Assembly (NCBI GenBank): GCA_003554345.1
Contig: PWGE01000411.1
Coordinates: 1 to 8,547 of the forward strand
DNA from: T1SED10-198M sp003554345 [NCBI: Candidatus Sumerlaeota bacterium]
Lineage (GTDB): Bacteria > Sumerlaeota > T1SED10-198M
Reading direction: 5' to 3'
Length of the DNA: 8,547 nucleotides
The notes under the pieces were generated by a model, which made no database searches, was not told the DNA's origin, and saw only the letters and a program-made list of their open reading frames with translations. Positions 1-8,451 of the stretch are shown piece after piece (the stretch's first letter is position 1; each line of letters starts with the position of its first letter). Position numbers and translations under genes: made by a program.

Positions 1-2907
1 CGGACCTGCCGTAGCACTGGCGGTAGATCCAATAAGATATACTGCAACAACTCCAAATTTTCTGGAACCAAGTCTTAATGCAAGTTGTTCTGCCATACGC
101 AAGCGCCATTGCCAGTATTCTTCGTTATGTATAACCGTGGTTTTACGCGGCACCTTTATCTGTTCGCTTATAGGAGCTGGTTTATCAAAAAATCCGATTC
201 CTTCATTTATGTCGGCATTCATTAAAATTTTGAGAACCTTTTCATCCTTTTGTTTAGAAACGTCGATTACCCGTAAAGTGTCTTCCAGATACTCATATTC
301 CGGTAAAATATCGGCCAGTATGTTTTCTGAACTTAAAAGAAACTTTTCATTGAACACCGAGTCGGCTTCATGAGGATAGATTGGAATATATCGTATACCT
401 GCTTCTACCATATCCTGGAAAAAATGGGTTCCAAAAGACAGCTCAGGTTCATAGGCCCCCTTTTTATATGCGATTTCCACAAGTGCAGCGGTATGACTGA
501 TGTCAGAATAGGTGATAGGTACTCCTTGCTTAATGTCGCCTCTACTGCCCCATCGCCCGGGGCCCATTAAAATAAAACGCCGCTTGGGTAAGAGAGTATT
601 CAACTTGCCCACGGCGCGTCCTATATCAACCATAGTGTCAAGACTTTTCTGTTGAGCATAATGTGCCGGAGGCACATAAACGATGTGGGTGATATCGGGT
701 ACCCAGCCATTTGAAATAAACCGGTGTATCCTGAAAAGTATCTCCTTCAGGGGTATGTCCTGCCGTATAGCTTCCGGCACTTCTACCTCTTCCGTAAATT
801 GAGGGCGGCACTGGAGCAGGTAAAAGTCTTCTCCATCACAGGCAAACTCTATGTCTACCGGTGTATTCATCCCTTCCTGAAGGGTTTGCAGGATCTGTTT
901 CATTTTTCGATCAAAAGAAGTGCGCTTGATCAAGCCGTCAAAGGTGGCCACCAATTCGGTTTTCTCCAGGTCTGTTTCCAGGGGAGAGAGACGTCTTATT
1001 TCACCGTCACGGTATGTAGAGACGATCCGGGATAGGTTGGGGAGCTCATTTCCATAGTCGGCAAGCAGACGTTGAAAAGAAATGGTTTCCAGAGTACAGG
1101 TTTCCAGGTTTATAGCGTCTACGTAGGAAGGAGAATAATATCGCACTTCGTCAGGTGTGGCGTTCACACGTATATCGGGTTGACCGGGTGATATCATCGC
1201 CGGATAATCGTTACTGATCCGGTCTACAGCCCTCGTTCCCAGTCCGGGAACCAACCGAATTAATCCATCTTCACGTTTCAATCGTGGAGACCACCTGAAC
1301 TCATTGGAACTGAATGCTACTCCTGCATAGTTCGGCATATAATAGGGGCCTACACGGCATCCTACAACTTCTTGAATCATAATGCCCATTTCTTCGTGAA
1401 AATCAAGTAACCCATGTTCTGTACGATAAAGAATGGCATCAGGATTGTACACAGAGGCATAAATTTCAGCTATGGCGTCTGTCAGGGCATGCAACCGTTC
1501 CTTTTTGCTTCCCTGGTTTGGCAAGAAAAGACTCTTGTATTTTCCTGAAAAAGCTGTGCCGGCACGGTCCTCCAGCAAACTGGAACTTCGTACTATAATT
1601 GGATTGTGCCCGAATTCATCCAGGGCATGAGAAAGCCCCTTGTAGATATCTGAAGGAAAACGTCCGTGCTTGAATAACTGTATAATATTCGGATATTCGA
1701 ACCGAATTTGCTCAATGTTCTCGTACTTCAATTCGCTTACATCGCCCAGATCATTATAATGGAGAAATTCTGTCAGGCAATCTGCAGTCATATACCAGGT
1801 CTTTGGCATTTTTATCCCTTCCAGCAGATCGTTTTTTTCCGCAGCTCCGGATATAATATGCCACGCCAGGAATAGACCGGTGCTCTTACCGCCAAGCCTC
1901 CCGTTGCTTCCGGCAGGATAAATGATGCGGGATACCAGATCAAAAAAATCAGATACCTTCAGATATTGCTTGGCATAGTTTATAAACTCTACATCATCAG
2001 TAAAAAACCTGCGAATAAGGGACACGCGAAGCCATTTATCGGTTGACTCTGAAAGAACTGTTTCATTTCCTGCCTGCGCATGATACCTCAAAAGAACGTC
2101 GATTATTTCTTTGAGCGACATGATGTCAGAATCTACTGTTCTGATCAGATATCCCAACCTGTTTTCCTGTATCCACTTGTGCAGCGAAGAAAGAATTTCT
2201 TCATCGTTCAGGTAGCGCGAGGCAATCCTGAACACCTTTTCACTTATTTGCAGGAGGTTTTCCCGTGATTCTTTACGGGTCGGAATATTGACTTCACCCA
2301 TGACTTCGGCATATTGTGCGGCAAACTCGGACCCGAAAGATTGAAGCGTCTCGCGGGCTTCTGTAATGCCCCGGCAGAAAAGGTGGTACAGCATTTTGCG
2401 TGAGCAGTAAAGATACAGCTTTTCATCAGTTCGTCGCAACATATCGACAACGGCTTTCCATTCACTGGTCGTTTCTTTTTGCTCGGATAATAAACTCTCC
2501 AGCTGTCTGTGGAGAAGGGTTTGTCCTATTCGGTCAGCAATTGTACGAAGCAGCTGGCTTTCCTGCTTTAAAAAGGGCCCCTCTGATGTTTCCGGGACCT
2601 CTTTAATATAGGAGACTTCCACGGAACCGGCCTCTTTATCTCCAACAAAAATAGGTGCACTTTCCTGGTACCTCGCAGGCTTATGTCGGGGAGATTCATA
2701 GGTTTGGTCTTTGTAAATGATCCGGGCCTGACAATCTTTGGGATATCTCCATCCAGTAGGGATGGCTGTAATCAGGTCCTGGAAAATATCTGTCAGGGAA
2801 CTTGAACGATTTCCCAGTATTTCATCAACGTAGTAGAGACAGTTGAGTTCTTTTTCCCGCTCCATTAACAGAGGGACAAGTTCTTCTGTTTGTTTGTCCT
2901 TTTTCAT
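1..2907 (-). CDS. Large PEP/pyruvate-binding (PPDK_N-type) multidomain protein, 3' end beyond window
   Basis: The frame is open from the ATG at 2907 to base 1, giving 969 codons with no stop, so the C-terminus is missing. A GAGGGG ribosome site lies 4 nt upstream of the ATG. Residues about 10-145 resemble a GAF-like sensor region. Residues about 325-705 match the ATP-grasp PEP/pyruvate-binding domain of pyruvate phosphate dikinase and PEP synthase: GGKS at 339-342, VRSS at 439-442 followed by E446-D447, a GVAF strand at 529-532, and the closing IEFA (686-689) and LQCRP (698-702) with E687, Q699 and R701. Residues about 770-840 hold a GPGRWGS motif (782-788) and a GTHFFQ motif, which I recall from atypical PEP/pyruvate-binding proteins. 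The last visible residues, LIGSTASATAGP, look like the start of a Pol-beta-type nucleotidyltransferase motif. Domain assignment is sound; substrate and pathway are unknown. It could be an atypical phosphotransferase or a regulatory protein rather than PEP synthase. Confidence 0.85.
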   Translation of the reverse strand, partial: MKKDKQTEELVPLLMEREKELNCLYYVDEILGNRSSSLTDIFQDLITAIPTGWRYPKDCQARIIYKDQTYESPRHKPARYQESAPIFVGDKEAGSVEVSYIKEVPETSEGPFLKQESQLLRTIADRIGQTLLHRQLESLLSEQKETTSEWKAVVDMLRRTDEKLYLYCSRKMLYHLFCRGITEARETLQSFGSEFAAQYAEVMGEVNIPTRKESRENLLQISEKVFRIASRYLNDEEILSSLHKWIQENRLGYLIRTVDSDIMSLKEIIDVLLRYHAQAGNETVLSESTDKWLRVSLIRRFFTDDVEFINYAKQYLKVSDFFDLVSRIIYPAGSNGRLGGKSTGLFLAWHIISGAAEKNDLLEGIKMPKTWYMTADCLTEFLHYNDLGDVSELKYENIEQIRFEYPNIIQLFKHGRFPSDIYKGLSHALDEFGHNPIIVRSSSLLEDRAGTAFSGKYKSLFLPNQGSKKERLHALTDAIAEIYASVYNPDAILYRTEHGLLDFHEEMGIMIQEVVGCRVGPYYMPNYAGVAFSSNEFRWSPRLKREDGLIRLVPGLGTRAVDRISNDYPAMISPGQPDIRVNATPDEVRYYSPSYVDAINLETCTLETISFQRLLADYGNELPNLSRIVSTYRDGEIRRLSPLETDLEKTELVATFDGLIKRTSFDRKMKQILQTLQEGMNTPVDIEFACDGEDFYLLQCRPQFTEEVEVPEAIRQDIPLKEILFRIHRFISNGWVPDITHIVYVPPAHYAQQKSLDTMVDIGRAVGKLNTLLPKRRFILMGPGRWGSRGDIKQGVPITYSDISHTAALVEIAYKKGAYEPELSFGTHFFQDMVEAGIRYIPIYPHEADSVFNEKFLLSSENILADILPEYEYLEDTLRVIDVSKQKDEKVLKILMNADINEGIGFFDKPAPISEQIKVPRKTTVIHNEEYWQWRLRMAEQLALRLGSRKFGVVAVYLIGSTASATAGP

Positions 2908-3180: not shown

Positions 3181-4467
3181 TTATGCCCACCCCCGTAATT
3201 GAACTGCCTCGGCAACACGATTGATAGCTATCATGTATGCGGCATCCCTCATGTACACTTTCTTACGGCGGGCCACTTCGTTGACGGCTGCAAAAGCCGA
3301 TGTCATTTTTGTATCCAATTTATCAAGGACCTCTTCTTTTTCCCAGAAATAATTGGTGTTACATTGAACCTGTTCGAAGTAACTGCAGGTTACACCACCG
3401 GCATTGGCAAGAAAATCAGGCAGGACAAAAATATTACGCTCCTTAAGCACCGAATCTGCTTCCGGAGTGGTGGGACCATTAGCCCCCTCCGAGATTACTT
3501 TAACTGAAGAGCCTATTTTTTTTACATTGCCACGGTTGATTTGATTCTCAAGCGCAGCAGGAATGAGGATATCCACTTCTTCTTCCAGCCAGGCTTCCCC
3601 GGGCAGTTTTTCATACCCCAGGTCACAGGCGCGCTGTTTGTCTATGCCGCCAAATTTATCCGTAATAGCCTTCAGTTCGTTTAAAACAATCCCTGTTTTC
3701 TTGCGATAGGTATAAGCTGTATTGTCCTCTTGATCCCAGCAGGAAATGGCGGTTACTTTACCGCCGAGTTGGGTGTACAATTGGATGGCATGTTGAGCAA
3801 CATTTCCAAAGCCTTGAATACTGGCTGTGGTTTTTTTGATATCAATTCCCAATACTTTGAGCGCTTCCCTTAATACATATATCACTCCGTATCCGGTAGC
3901 TTCGGTTCTTCCAAGTGATCCGCCCATACCAACCGGCTTGCCGGTGATAAAGCCGGGAAAGTGTCCACCGTGTATGGTCTCGAATTCGTCAAGCATCCAC
4001 AGCATATGTTGTCCACTTACCATCACGTCCGGAGCAGGGACATCACTCCAGGGACCTACATTTTTCGAAAGCTGTCGTACCCAACCCCGGCAGATTTGTT
4101 CCTGTTCACGCTGACTCAGGTTATGAGGATCACAAATTACGCCTCCTTTTCCTCCGCCCAGGGGGATATCGACCACCGAACATTTCCAGGTCATCCACAT
4201 TGCCAGTGCTCGTACTGTGTCAATGGTTTCCAGAGGGTGGAAGCGATTGCCTCCTTTGGCAGGACCGAGTGCATCATTATGCTGGACCCGGAATCCTTTG
4301 AATACTTTGATACTGCCGTCATCCATGCGTACAGGTATGACAAACTGATATTCTCGCATGGGTTCCCGCAGAAGGCTTTTGACCCCATTATCAAGATCAA
4401 GAAGCTCTGCTACGTTGTCAAACTGTGATTGGGCAACTTCAAATGGATTGTATGAACCATTTTTCAT
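3181..4467 (-). CDS. gdhA: Glutamate dehydrogenase (Glu/Leu/Phe/Val dehydrogenase family)
   Basis: A 428-residue cytoplasmic enzyme expected to convert glutamate to 2-oxoglutarate and ammonium, and the reverse, with NAD(P)H; the length suits hexameric glutamate dehydrogenases better than the shorter leucine dehydrogenases. The N-terminal catalytic half has the substrate motif KGGNRFHP (71-78), Lys94 in the MTWK segment, the catalytic lysine motif GGGKGG (103-108, Lys106) and PAPDV (143-147) with the catalytic Asp146. The nucleotide-binding half has GRTEATGYGV (185-194), the Rossmann turn GFGNVA (218-223), and later EGANGPTTPEAD and LANAGGV. The end of the second Rossmann strand reads ISCWDQ, where Ser-Asp is common, so NAD versus NADP preference cannot be called. 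An in-frame TTG at 4485 would add six residues, but it lies inside the Shine-Dalgarno sequence, so the ATG at 4467 was chosen. It is separated from its neighbours by 0.27 and 0.5 kb and is probably transcribed on its own. Confidence 0.95.
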   Translation of the reverse strand: MKNGSYNPFEVAQSQFDNVAELLDLDNGVKSLLREPMREYQFVIPVRMDDGSIKVFKGFRVQHNDALGPAKGGNRFHPLETIDTVRALAMWMTWKCSVVDIPLGGGKGGVICDPHNLSQREQEQICRGWVRQLSKNVGPWSDVPAPDVMVSGQHMLWMLDEFETIHGGHFPGFITGKPVGMGGSLGRTEATGYGVIYVLREALKVLGIDIKKTTASIQGFGNVAQHAIQLYTQLGGKVTAISCWDQEDNTAYTYRKKTGIVLNELKAITDKFGGIDKQRACDLGYEKLPGEAWLEEEVDILIPAALENQINRGNVKKIGSSVKVISEGANGPTTPEADSVLKERNIFVLPDFLANAGGVTCSYFEQVQCNTNYFWEKEEVLDKLDTKMTSAFAAVNEVARRKKVYMRDAAYMIAINRVAEAVQLRGWA

Positions 4468-4472
4468 ACGTG

Positions 4473-4483
4473 TTCTCCTCCTC
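4473..4483 (-). promoter_or_regulatory. Ribosome binding site of gdhA
   Basis: The minus strand reads GAGGAGGAGAA, containing a full AGGAGG core that ends 9 nt before the ATG at 4467. It decides the start: the upstream in-frame TTG at 4485-4483 overlaps this site and cannot be served by it. Confidence 0.85.
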
Positions 4484-4632
4484 AATGTGCAATATATTTA
4501 TCTGTTTGAATGATTTTTCGCCAAACTTCCGGAAAAAACTTCCTTATTCTTTTGAAGCTGAAAGGTATGTGAAGAGTCCTGTTCAGGTGCATGAATGTTG
4601 TTATTCCTGTAGGAAAATTTGAGATAGTCATC

Positions 4633-6740: not shown

Positions 6741-6752
6741 TGTATAAACTAA
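6741..6752 (-). repeat. Left copy of a 12-bp subterminal inverted motif
   Basis: On the minus strand this reads TTAGTTTATACA and includes the transposase stop codon TAG. The same 12 bases occur on the plus strand at 8419-8430, so the pair bracket the transposase gene in inverted orientation. It may be an inner transposase-binding site. Confidence 0.55.
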
Positions 6753-8416
6753 AGCGCTCTGAGAAGATCGTCGTAGAGCTTTTTGATTTCCGGCTCCATC
6801 TCTTCCAGTTGTGTTTCCTTTACCGGTTTACCCTTCAACCCTGTTACTGTAACGATCTGGGCTTTACGAATCTCTGAAAGTCTATCGAGAAGGGTTTGTA
6901 TGCTGTACTTGTAACCTGCTTCTTCTGCTTTTTTCCACAATAGCTGTGAGAGAAGTAAACCGATAACACAGATAAAGGTATGAACCCGAATCTTTTGATC
7001 CGTCCAGTGGTATTGAGGATGAACGGCATTATGGTAAGGATTCTTTAATTGCTTGAAAACTCTTTCAACATTGTTCTGTCCATGATAGGCAGCAATGATC
7101 TCTTCATCGCTCCACTCTGAGCGAGATGAGACAAGGATTTTTTTGCCATAAATATTTTGCGTTATGTCCCGATAAGCTTCTTTGTCCAGTTCCCAATCAA
7201 TGTCAAAACGCCCCTCTTCTCTTTCCTGAAGAGAAGTATTTATCAGCTGCTCGGTTCGCTCTCCTTTCAGAATTTCCTGCAGTTTGTTTTGAACAGCTTT
7301 TTTTGTTGTTTTTCTTGCCCGGGGATTATTTAGCTTATGCTTGAGTTCTCGAAGTAAGGAATATTTCTTTGCCAGTGTTTGATGTAATCCTCGTATCTGT
7401 CCCTTACGGAGTTTTTCACTTAAATATATAACGATCGTTCTGTCTTTTCCCCAAACTTTTCTGCACGTGCGATAACACAAAACTGTACGATCATGAACCA
7501 CGACTTTCCGGTAGGAAGAAAATGGGATCTCTAAGAGCTCCTGGTGGTAAGAAGAGCTCAAGCAGGCTACATATGATAACTGTTTGGCATCAAGTTCAGC
7601 AAAGTTTTTTTTGCTATTGCTCCCCTTATCAAAAACAAGAGTGATTTCTTCTAACTCAACATGAAGCTCCGTCATTTTTTCTCTAAAACGGGTCAGAAAA
7701 GGAATGAATCGCTTTTTATCCGTCTGGTTTCCTTCATAAATCTCTGAAAATACCGGAAGAAGAAAGTCTTTGGTGACCACTTGAGATAAGCCGAACTGCC
7801 TTAAATCATGTCGTTTTTGTTTGTTTCTTCCCCGACGAGCCAGCTTATTTCTCTCGTTACTCGAATCAATATAGGTGAAAAAATTGGTCATGTCATAAAA
7901 CAAAAGCCGGGGAGAAAAGTGCCCTTTTTCAATAAGCTTCAAGGTAACCCTTTTTTCTGCTTCCGCCAGCTCCTGGTCCGTTACAGCGTCCATCTGTTCC
8001 CAGAAATGCTGGCTGTCAAGCTTTTCTGGAGTTAAGCAGCAAAGCTCAGGCAGACTTGTCCGGCTTGCCCACCGGGCCAAAGAACGCTTACTGCCGGGAC
8101 AAGCTGCCCGGTGTACTGCCGCCACAAGGAGGCTTTTGCCAACGGTAAGACCATCTCTTTGCTGTGTAGAAAACGTCTGCTCAAATATACGCAACACCTC
8201 AAGTTCTTGTGCCGCCTTATGCAAGAGTTCTACAGAGCCGTGCTCTTTTGAGCAGATTTTCTTTTTTAAGGCCCCTGCTTGCAGTTTATACAAAAGCTGC
8301 TCAGCAGTTCCCAGATGCATGAGTACAAAGGGGCGAGGTTTACCATTAACACTTTTAGATTCAATAATCTGCCAGTATGTTTTGTTACCCACTTTTGACT
8401 TTCGTATGGTCGCCAT
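6749..8416 (-). CDS. IS1634-family DDE transposase
   Basis: A 555-residue transposase expected to cut and join the element's ends through an RNase H-like fold with a DDE metal-binding triad. Likely catalytic residues, counted from the ATG, are Asp175 in FYDMTNFF, Asp263 in LVFDKGSNS, and Glu451 in NNVERVFKQLKNPY; the last resembles the Y-(2)-R/G-(3)-E-(6)-K signature of the IS4 superfamily. The N-terminal MATIRKSKVGNKTYWQI and NGKPRPFVLMHLGT segments are typical of IS1634 transposases. A GTG at 8431 would add five residues, but the -10 box of the promoter overlaps that stretch, so the ATG at 8416 was chosen. No frameshift or internal stop is present. There is no Shine-Dalgarno sequence before the ATG, consistent with a leaderless message. 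Confidence 0.93.
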   Translation of the reverse strand: MATIRKSKVGNKTYWQIIESKSVNGKPRPFVLMHLGTAEQLLYKLQAGALKKKICSKEHGSVELLHKAAQELEVLRIFEQTFSTQQRDGLTVGKSLLVAAVHRAACPGSKRSLARWASRTSLPELCCLTPEKLDSQHFWEQMDAVTDQELAEAEKRVTLKLIEKGHFSPRLLFYDMTNFFTYIDSSNERNKLARRGRNKQKRHDLRQFGLSQVVTKDFLLPVFSEIYEGNQTDKKRFIPFLTRFREKMTELHVELEEITLVFDKGSNSKKNFAELDAKQLSYVACLSSSYHQELLEIPFSSYRKVVVHDRTVLCYRTCRKVWGKDRTIVIYLSEKLRKGQIRGLHQTLAKKYSLLRELKHKLNNPRARKTTKKAVQNKLQEILKGERTEQLINTSLQEREEGRFDIDWELDKEAYRDITQNIYGKKILVSSRSEWSDEEIIAAYHGQNNVERVFKQLKNPYHNAVHPQYHWTDQKIRVHTFICVIGLLLSQLLWKKAEEAGYKYSIQTLLDRLSEIRKAQIVTVTGLKGKPVKETQLEEMEPEIKKLYDDLLRAL

Positions 8417-8418
8417 AG

Positions 8419-8430
8419 TTAGTTTATACA
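8419..8430 (+). repeat. Right copy of the 12-bp subterminal inverted motif
   Basis: TTAGTTTATACA on the plus strand, the inverted partner of 6741-6752. It contains the -10 box of the transposase promoter. A related copy, TTAGTCTATACG (10 of 12 bases), lies in the same orientation at 8475-8486. Confidence 0.55.
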
Positions 8431-8451
8431 CTATTTTTACTCATATGTCAA
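8423..8451 (-). promoter_or_regulatory. Near-consensus transposase promoter
   Basis: The minus strand has a perfect TTGACA (8451-8446), a 17-nt spacer and TATAAA (8428-8423). The expected transcription start, about 7 nt after the -10 box, falls on the A of the transposase ATG at 8416, so the message would have no leader. Confidence 0.75.

Follow-up and report, generated by a model that had tools for sequence, protein, structure and literature searches.

Introduction

Of the described proteins that resemble in part the one reported here, phosphoenolpyruvate (PEP) synthase, rifampin phosphotransferase and PigC act on small molecules, GlnD and GlnE carry family-specific nucleotidyltransferase domains (with HD and ACT domains, or as paired GlnE domains), and EINtr of the PTS-Ntr system uses PEP and has a PEP-utiliser TIM barrel. 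The window analysed, that is, the whole stretch of 8,547 bases, is one entire contig (PWGE01000411.1; C1) in an assembly of 454 contigs from a Candidatus Sumerlaeota bacterium. It harbours a long gene that lies directly downstream of a gene for glutamate dehydrogenase (GDH) and joins a predicted GAF-fold sensor, a PPDK_N ATP-grasp domain, a conserved GPGRWGS/GTHFF region and the start of a putative nucleotidyltransferase. We propose, with a probability of about 50%, that its product is a nitrogen-status-sensing, ATP-dependent regulator that acts on the adjacent GDH by addition of a nucleotide or phosphate, in parallel to GlnD and GlnE.

EINtr is reported to require its GAF domain to bind glutamine, which inhibits its autophosphorylation (PMC4848567), and MntA, with its GSX10DXD spacing, to adenylylate a tyrosine of its partner protein (PMC7641770). 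The long protein shares with PEP synthase, pyruvate phosphate dikinase (PPDK) and rifampin phosphotransferase the fold and residues of the PPDK_N ATP-grasp, possibly followed by a swivel-like domain, but it has no TIM barrel or PF00391 match, adds a GAF-fold sensor and a nucleotidyltransferase, and is linked to GDH. It has in common with the minimal nucleotidyltransferase (MNT)-type enzymes (MntA antitoxin, AadA; NTP_transf_2) the GS-X10-DxD spacing and the fold, yet here the domain is fused C-terminally to an ATP-grasp sensor protein. The likeness to GlnD and GlnE would be one of logic only, a nucleotidyltransferase presumably controlling nitrogen assimilation: the accompanying domains differ, the presumed target is GDH rather than PII or glutamine synthetase, and no GlnD or GlnE family was found in Pfam scans of the window protein and its full-length relative L029. 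As in EINtr/PtsP, a GAF sensor is carried on a phosphotransfer protein, and PtsP GAF domains are among the fold matches, but an ATP-grasp stands in place of the TIM barrel of EINtr. Finally, a protein encoded divergently next to gdhA in Parabacteroides distasonis has the same core (29% identical over 54% of the window protein) but a receiver-like N-terminus and no nucleotidyltransferase match; it is named only 'PEP/pyruvate-binding domain-containing protein'. A search of the open literature, with bioRxiv and the majority of subscription journals outside its scope and hence weak as evidence, found no earlier description of the GDH-linked protein. The building blocks belong to known families; the regulatory system would be new if confirmed.

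Linkage of the long gene to glutamate dehydrogenase

In the window, the GDH gene (3181 to 4485, minus strand; both ELFV domains detected by Pfam, PF00208 at 246 bits and PF02812 at 177 bits; an in-frame ATG at 4467) immediately precedes the long gene in the same orientation, with 273 nucleotides (nt) between it and the ATG. This context was missed in the first-pass annotation, made from the sequence alone; the strongest evidence, namely the link to GDH and the other nitrogen genes, lay outside the interval which that annotation covered.

To gather related loci, a genome collection was scanned once with the protein alone, that is, not by GDH neighbourhood; this yielded 126 relatives, from which the 80 best were retained. 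The window GDH has a close relative in 68 of the 80 loci (65 on the same strand and three divergent, some cut by a contig end), the same-strand gap having a median of ~119 nt and a maximum of 2031 in these 65; where 600 nt or more of upstream sequence is available (73 loci), GDH is found in 64. The conserved GDH motifs, which we take to hold the active-site residues, are kept in 65 rows including the window. The relatives, nearly all from metagenome assemblies, are labelled Verrucomicrobia/Kiritimatiellae, Planctomycetes, Fibrobacter, Chitinispirillaceae, Aminicenantes, Acidobacteria, Syntrophomonas, Ignavibacteria, Calditrichia, Neomarinimicrobiota, Zixibacteria, Spirochaetes, Gemmatimonadetes and others.

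The ATP-grasp core, called at E <= 1e-30, was then surveyed in 386 genomes, a sample weighted towards the window's phylum (40 are the window's own genome and its phylum). It was found in 80 genomes, with 112 matches in which fragments are counted apart (G045, G193 and G332, among the 80, have weak, partial matches only). Of the 112 matches, 62, spread over 42 of the 80 core genomes, have a GDH-family domain no more than 6 kb away, as measured between matched segments, and 73 of the 80 genomes encode such a domain somewhere. As a control in the same genomes, one of 150 PEP-utilising domains among those listed has GDH within 6 kb, and that one (in G352) shares its contig with a core gene. The difference corresponds to a Fisher P value of ~1e-27 for matches and ~1e-14 for genomes, both rough as the matches are not independent.

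Domain architecture of the long protein

The long-gene frame (1 to 2907, minus strand) is stop-free from an ATG at 2907 to base 1, so that 969 residues are visible; a TTG at 2919 is also open in this frame. Because the window is the whole contig and the frame reaches the contig end, the gene is truncated after residue 969. The missing tail was not located on the other contigs of the same assembly, where the search returned, besides the window, weak matches only, to short MNT-like frames. Full-length relatives show the C-terminus. Complete relatives are ~1050-1140 residues long (start codons chosen by the analyst) and consist of a GAF-fold sensor, a helical stretch, the PPDK_N ATP-grasp, the GPGRWGS/GTHFF region and a minimal nucleotidyltransferase. 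For conservation, 48 of the 80 relatives were aligned with the window protein (49 rows); for structure, a model was made of L029, which is 63% identical to the window protein (mean predicted local distance difference test score, pLDDT, 81; predicted template modelling score, pTM, 0.66).

The ATP-grasp domain (766 to 1899, minus strand) was identified by Pfam as PPDK_N at residues 341-718 of the TTG-started frame, with 196 bits against a cut-off of 27. Its key residues R440, E446-D447, E687, Q699 and R701, whose positions had been given exactly right in the first-pass annotation, occupy columns that are invariant in all 49 aligned sequences, the window included. In the L029 model, the ATP-grasp fold matches rifampin phosphotransferase (Z 25.9, root-mean-square deviation (rmsd) 3.7, 370 residues) and PEP synthase (Z 24.8, rmsd 4.0, 363 residues), and PPDK is also among the fold matches.

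The N-terminus (residues ~12-140; 2488 to 2874, minus strand, boundaries transferred by alignment) is supported as GAF-like by the predicted fold of L029, whose best GAF-titled match is 4g3k (Z 12.3, 114 aligned, rmsd 2.4) and which also matches the NifA GAF domain 8jrc (Z 11.7). Pfam GAF, in contrast, has no match in the window protein or L029, so that the GAF reading of the first-pass annotation is borne out by the modelled relative and not by Pfam. Between sensor and ATP-grasp, residues ~150-325 (1933 to 2460, minus strand) form a helical region in the secondary structure of the L029 model, with no assigned family.

The start of the nucleotidyltransferase is at 1 to 129 (minus strand), where GSTASATAGP had been taken as the opening of a probable nucleotidyltransferase motif. 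That proposal gains support from the relatives: in most of them SDIDLL, or a sequence very like it, comes next, Pfam NTP_transf_2 reaches E <= 0.1 in 46 of the 49 C-terminal halves, and L029 scores 30.5 bits against the curated cut-off of 21. GS-X10-DxD plus a later third Asp is kept in 41 of the 48 members whose tail is present; for the window protein, with its tail cut off, the motif is transferred from these relatives. A model of the C-terminal third of L029 matched MNT and AadA nucleotidyltransferases with Z of 7.7-8.2 and rmsd of 3.2-3.5 over 98-106 residues. With Foldseek this model had no match at E <= 0.001; nucleotidyltransferases led the ranking (best E 3.6e-3), ahead of scattered matches to other folds. 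These moderate fold scores agree with the Pfam NTP_transf_2 result. Frames of 104-137 residues on contigs C21, C67, C289, C310 and C453 of G000 weakly match the nucleotidyltransferase part (E 8e-4 to 0.4); they are possibly MNT-type antitoxins.

The region between ATP-grasp and nucleotidyltransferase (172 to 774, minus strand) harbours GPGRWGS and GTHFFQ, both present in the window protein and conserved in the relatives, as had been reported; the histidine of GTHFF (H828; codon 424-426) is invariant in all 49 rows. The first-pass annotation had recognised neither a swivelling phosphohistidine domain nor a TIM barrel. No TIM-barrel family was found in full-length L029, which ends in the nucleotidyltransferase, ~140 residues past position 920. 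The lack of a swivel domain holds by sequence and is uncertain by structure: PF00391, the phosphohistidine domain of PEP-utilisers, is missing from the Pfam results for the window protein and L029, and profile-profile comparison (hhalign) of the GTHFF region with phosphohistidine domains gave a probability of 0.2% and a P of 0.26, as for three control regions (P 0.18-0.21), but eight structural alignments of the L029 model continue across the GTHFF region and there cover parts of PPDK, PEP synthase and rifampin phosphotransferase in which the swivelling phosphohistidine domains presumably lie. The overlap, read from the first and last aligned residues, falls short of a residue-by-residue proof. 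The C-terminal L029 model also aligned with residues 756-867 of rifampin phosphotransferase (109 residues, Z 5.3), a match that alone could be chance. The region may possibly be a divergent swivel domain, at which structure hints and sequence does not.

The observation of one large multi-domain protein is thus confirmed by the open frame, Pfam, the conserved motifs and the relatives, and the L029 model displays the GAF fold, the ATP-grasp and the nucleotidyltransferase. The outcomes named beforehand as contrary to the first-pass interpretation did not occur, as relatives carry D-x-D after position 969 and no TIM barrel follows. Its domain reading, its nucleotidyltransferase and its guess of signalling or non-pyruvate chemistry are all supported, with the absence of a swivel domain as the uncertain part.

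Architectures and GDH classes in the wider family

In distant relatives the ATP-grasp plus GTHFF core is kept while the ends differ: N-termini are of GAF-fold, receiver-like or KaiC-resembling kind, and a short form has none. Across 26 aligned core regions of four architectures, neither the ATP-grasp residues nor the GTHFF histidine varies. The receiver-like assignment rests on Pfam Response_reg at 28 bits in two proteins tested, just below the cut-off of 30.2, and the KaiC-resembling one was made by eye, with no Pfam match in two proteins tested. A tree of 149 core regions, built by a fast method with long-branch and composition warnings and used only to separate main groups, placed the 64 GAF/nucleotidyltransferase rows in one branch and the 20 KaiC-resembling rows in another.

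Sensor type largely follows GDH class, as read in 40 stretches chosen from the GDH-linked matches. The class of the window GDH (first class) occurs in 16 stretches, 13 of which carry the GAF/nucleotidyltransferase-type core (among these, L237 is without a detected nucleotidyltransferase, and L208 and L231 without a detected GAF). The second class, closer to Parabacteroides gdhA, occurs in 20, where the core is receiver-like in 14 and KaiC-resembling in three; the remaining three are L213 with a 518-residue core, L245 with an unclassified core and L222, in which the GDH lies beyond a first-class GDH. GDHs that score lower against the first class (463-529 bits) are found in seven stretches, with receiver-like (one), KaiC-resembling (two) and unclassified (four) cores. 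Exceptions to a strict rule are L245, where a first-class GDH adjoins a receiver-like core, L208, which has one on the other side, L229, with an unclassified and then a receiver-like core, and L228, which ends at a contig edge. In the window's phylum the core is present in 11 of the 40 genomes, and in L109, L110 and L111 KaiC-resembling cores lie ~100-200 nt from a second-class GDH.

Several further observations were made on these loci. L242 (2312-17146) harbours, in this order, a first-class GDH, a short core, a GAF-core-nucleotidyltransferase gene, and a second-class GDH with receiver-like cores on both sides. The KaiC-resembling region, of ~295 residues, occurs in L104-L111, L174, L175, L177, L178, L179, L191 and L193 and may be an undescribed domain. 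In L176, L225, L226, L227, L229, L230 and L245, cores of ~780-845 residues have an N-terminus that matches none of the sensor profiles used; most of them adjoin a GDH, several of the lower-scoring class. In L088 (4548-6858) and L094 (2387-4780), the gene just upstream of GDH has an N-terminus ~33% identical to the GAF domain of the long protein; the one in L088 is a histidine kinase by Pfam, and frames that look response-regulator-like by eye come after the gene in both. They could form a second signalling layer.

Core genes away from GDH

Core matches that lack a nearby GDH were examined in another 20 stretches, most of which show no evident nitrogen link. In four of them other glutamate or glutamine genes were seen near the core by eye, in agreement with curated models. 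GltB and GltD are directly upstream and CarA directly downstream of the core in L193, GltB is directly downstream in L175, GlnA is ~2.3 kb away in L184, and a glutaminase is ~1.8 kb away in L192. In L107, from the window's phylum, the core is a divergent neighbour of the ammonium transporter gene Amt. Aminotransferases adjoin the core in L113, L179 and L182, two of the three below curated cut-offs. The genes of L193 (444-13483) are arranged like an operon, in which GltB, GltD, the core and CarA are followed by CarB- and GuaA-like frames, the latter by eye.

Discussion

Sensors differ across the family, the ATP-using core is conserved, and its most common neighbour is GDH, with more than one class represented; a regulator would be expected to show this pattern. 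Together with the MntA spacing and the precedent of the EINtr GAF domain, this pattern favours an enzyme that modifies or otherwise controls GDH. The computations establish the domain order, which residues are conserved and the genomic association with GDH; the signal, the chemistry and the GDH protein as target are inferences. The GAF domain would most likely sense a signal of nitrogen or carbon status, for example glutamine or 2-oxoglutarate. This signal would control the ATP-dependent core, made of the PPDK_N ATP-grasp and the domain with the invariant histidine, which is perhaps a phosphoryl carrier; the core, the MNT-type nucleotidyltransferase or both would then add a nucleotide or phosphate to GDH and thereby switch its activity, resembling the action of GlnD and GlnE on PII and glutamine synthetase. 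More tentatively, and with odds clearly below even, the wider family might constitute a new nitrogen-control module parallel to GlnD-PII-GlnE, with a PPDK-type ATP-grasp core, swappable sensors and, in one clade, an MNT-type nucleotidyltransferase, that covalently controls GDH and elsewhere perhaps glutamate synthase or related steps.

GDH is a central point at which ammonium enters carbon metabolism, and a conserved, sensor-bearing, ATP-using partner encoded next to it across many phyla would, if the proposal is true, be a missing regulator. It would also assign a role to genes whose sole annotation is 'PEP/pyruvate-binding domain-containing protein', of which one example was seen, and would place a PPDK_N ATP-grasp in signalling rather than central metabolism.

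Several points weigh against it. The GDH link is one of genomic neighbourhood, and contact between the two proteins is presumed. In 38 of the 80 core genomes all core matches are more than 6 kb from any GDH-family gene found, and in seven none was found at all, although contig breaks contribute to these figures; L042 has almost 10 kb and L048 has 3 kb of upstream sequence without GDH. As no nucleotidyltransferase was detected in L237 or in the non-GAF architectures, nucleotidyl transfer cannot be the function common to all. The sequence-profile test did not bear out the idea of a swivel domain. The occurrences near GltB, Amt, GlnA and glutaminase are uncontrolled observations, the ten proteins concerned having been picked by eye before the scan. 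Lastly, the nucleotidyltransferase motif is altered in seven of 48 members (L053, L057, L062, L076, L083, L096 and L101).

The last point leads to an unlikely but serious alternative, a non-covalent regulator whose core senses adenylate or energy state, binds ATP or AMP together with GDH and acts by contact, with the nucleotidyltransferase dispensable or partly vestigial. The ATP-grasp residues are invariant where that motif is altered: for example, in L053 and L057 (both labelled Aminicenantes) the active-site acids are changed to GN..ELN and GS..EIG with the ATP-grasp residues intact. Moreover, receiver-like, KaiC-resembling and unclassified architectures without a detected nucleotidyltransferase adjoin GDH too. 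However, the full G-S/D-x-D/D set persists in the large majority of members, and the GTHFF histidine is invariant across architectures, which pure binding would not require.

A metabolic enzyme, that is, an ATP-dependent phosphotransferase or ligase for a small molecule of glutamate metabolism, is somewhat more doubtful. It accords with the sequence of the ATP-grasp, to which PEP synthase and PigC models come nearest, and with its fold, for which rifampin phosphotransferase, PEP synthase and PPDK are the nearest matches. For rifampin phosphotransferase, which consists of an ATP-grasp, a rifampin-binding domain and a C-terminal His domain, NCBIfam scores lie far below the family cut-offs (39.6 against 999 bits). 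However, neither a TIM barrel nor another recognised acceptor domain is present, N-termini of at least three kinds, including GAF-fold and receiver-like ones, occur with the core, and the neighbour genes vary.

It is less probable still that the long protein has a different target, for example the short core protein or some additional regulator, with shared regulation as the sole reason for the GDH link. The short core gene is indeed a frequent companion: of the 80 loci, 25 were inspected by eye, and in 21 of them it immediately precedes the long gene (all 17 that were translated, of these 21, carry the core). In 13 loci it separates GDH from the long gene, and in L064 it overlaps the long gene by a few bases. 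A short protein of the same ATP-grasp family is also directly upstream, whole or contig-cut, in eight of the nine loci that lack GDH despite at least 600 nt of upstream sequence (not L059). In the tree, 26 of 27 short rows group with receiver-like rows rather than with the long proteins, indicating that the short gene is no recent duplicate of its long neighbour. Yet in the window and most GDH-linked loci of its type less than 600 nt separate GDH from the long gene, too little for a short gene. Finally, an ordinary or decayed PEP synthase or PPDK relative, to which the PPDK_N domain alone would point, is rejected as very improbable by the domain scan of L029, with neither PF00391 nor a TIM-barrel family, and by the control domains lying away from GDH, a separate PPDK_N plus PF00391 enzyme being present on contig C26 of the same genome.

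Other features of the window

An Rfam scan of the window at gathering thresholds gave no matches. The remaining minus-strand genes, before GDH, are khpA, rimM and trmD. After trmD no frame was read as rplS in the window, and a transposase (Pfam DDE_Tnp_1, 27.7 bits; window 6749-8431) is directly upstream of khpA. The gene order around trmD seems disturbed relative to the usual one.

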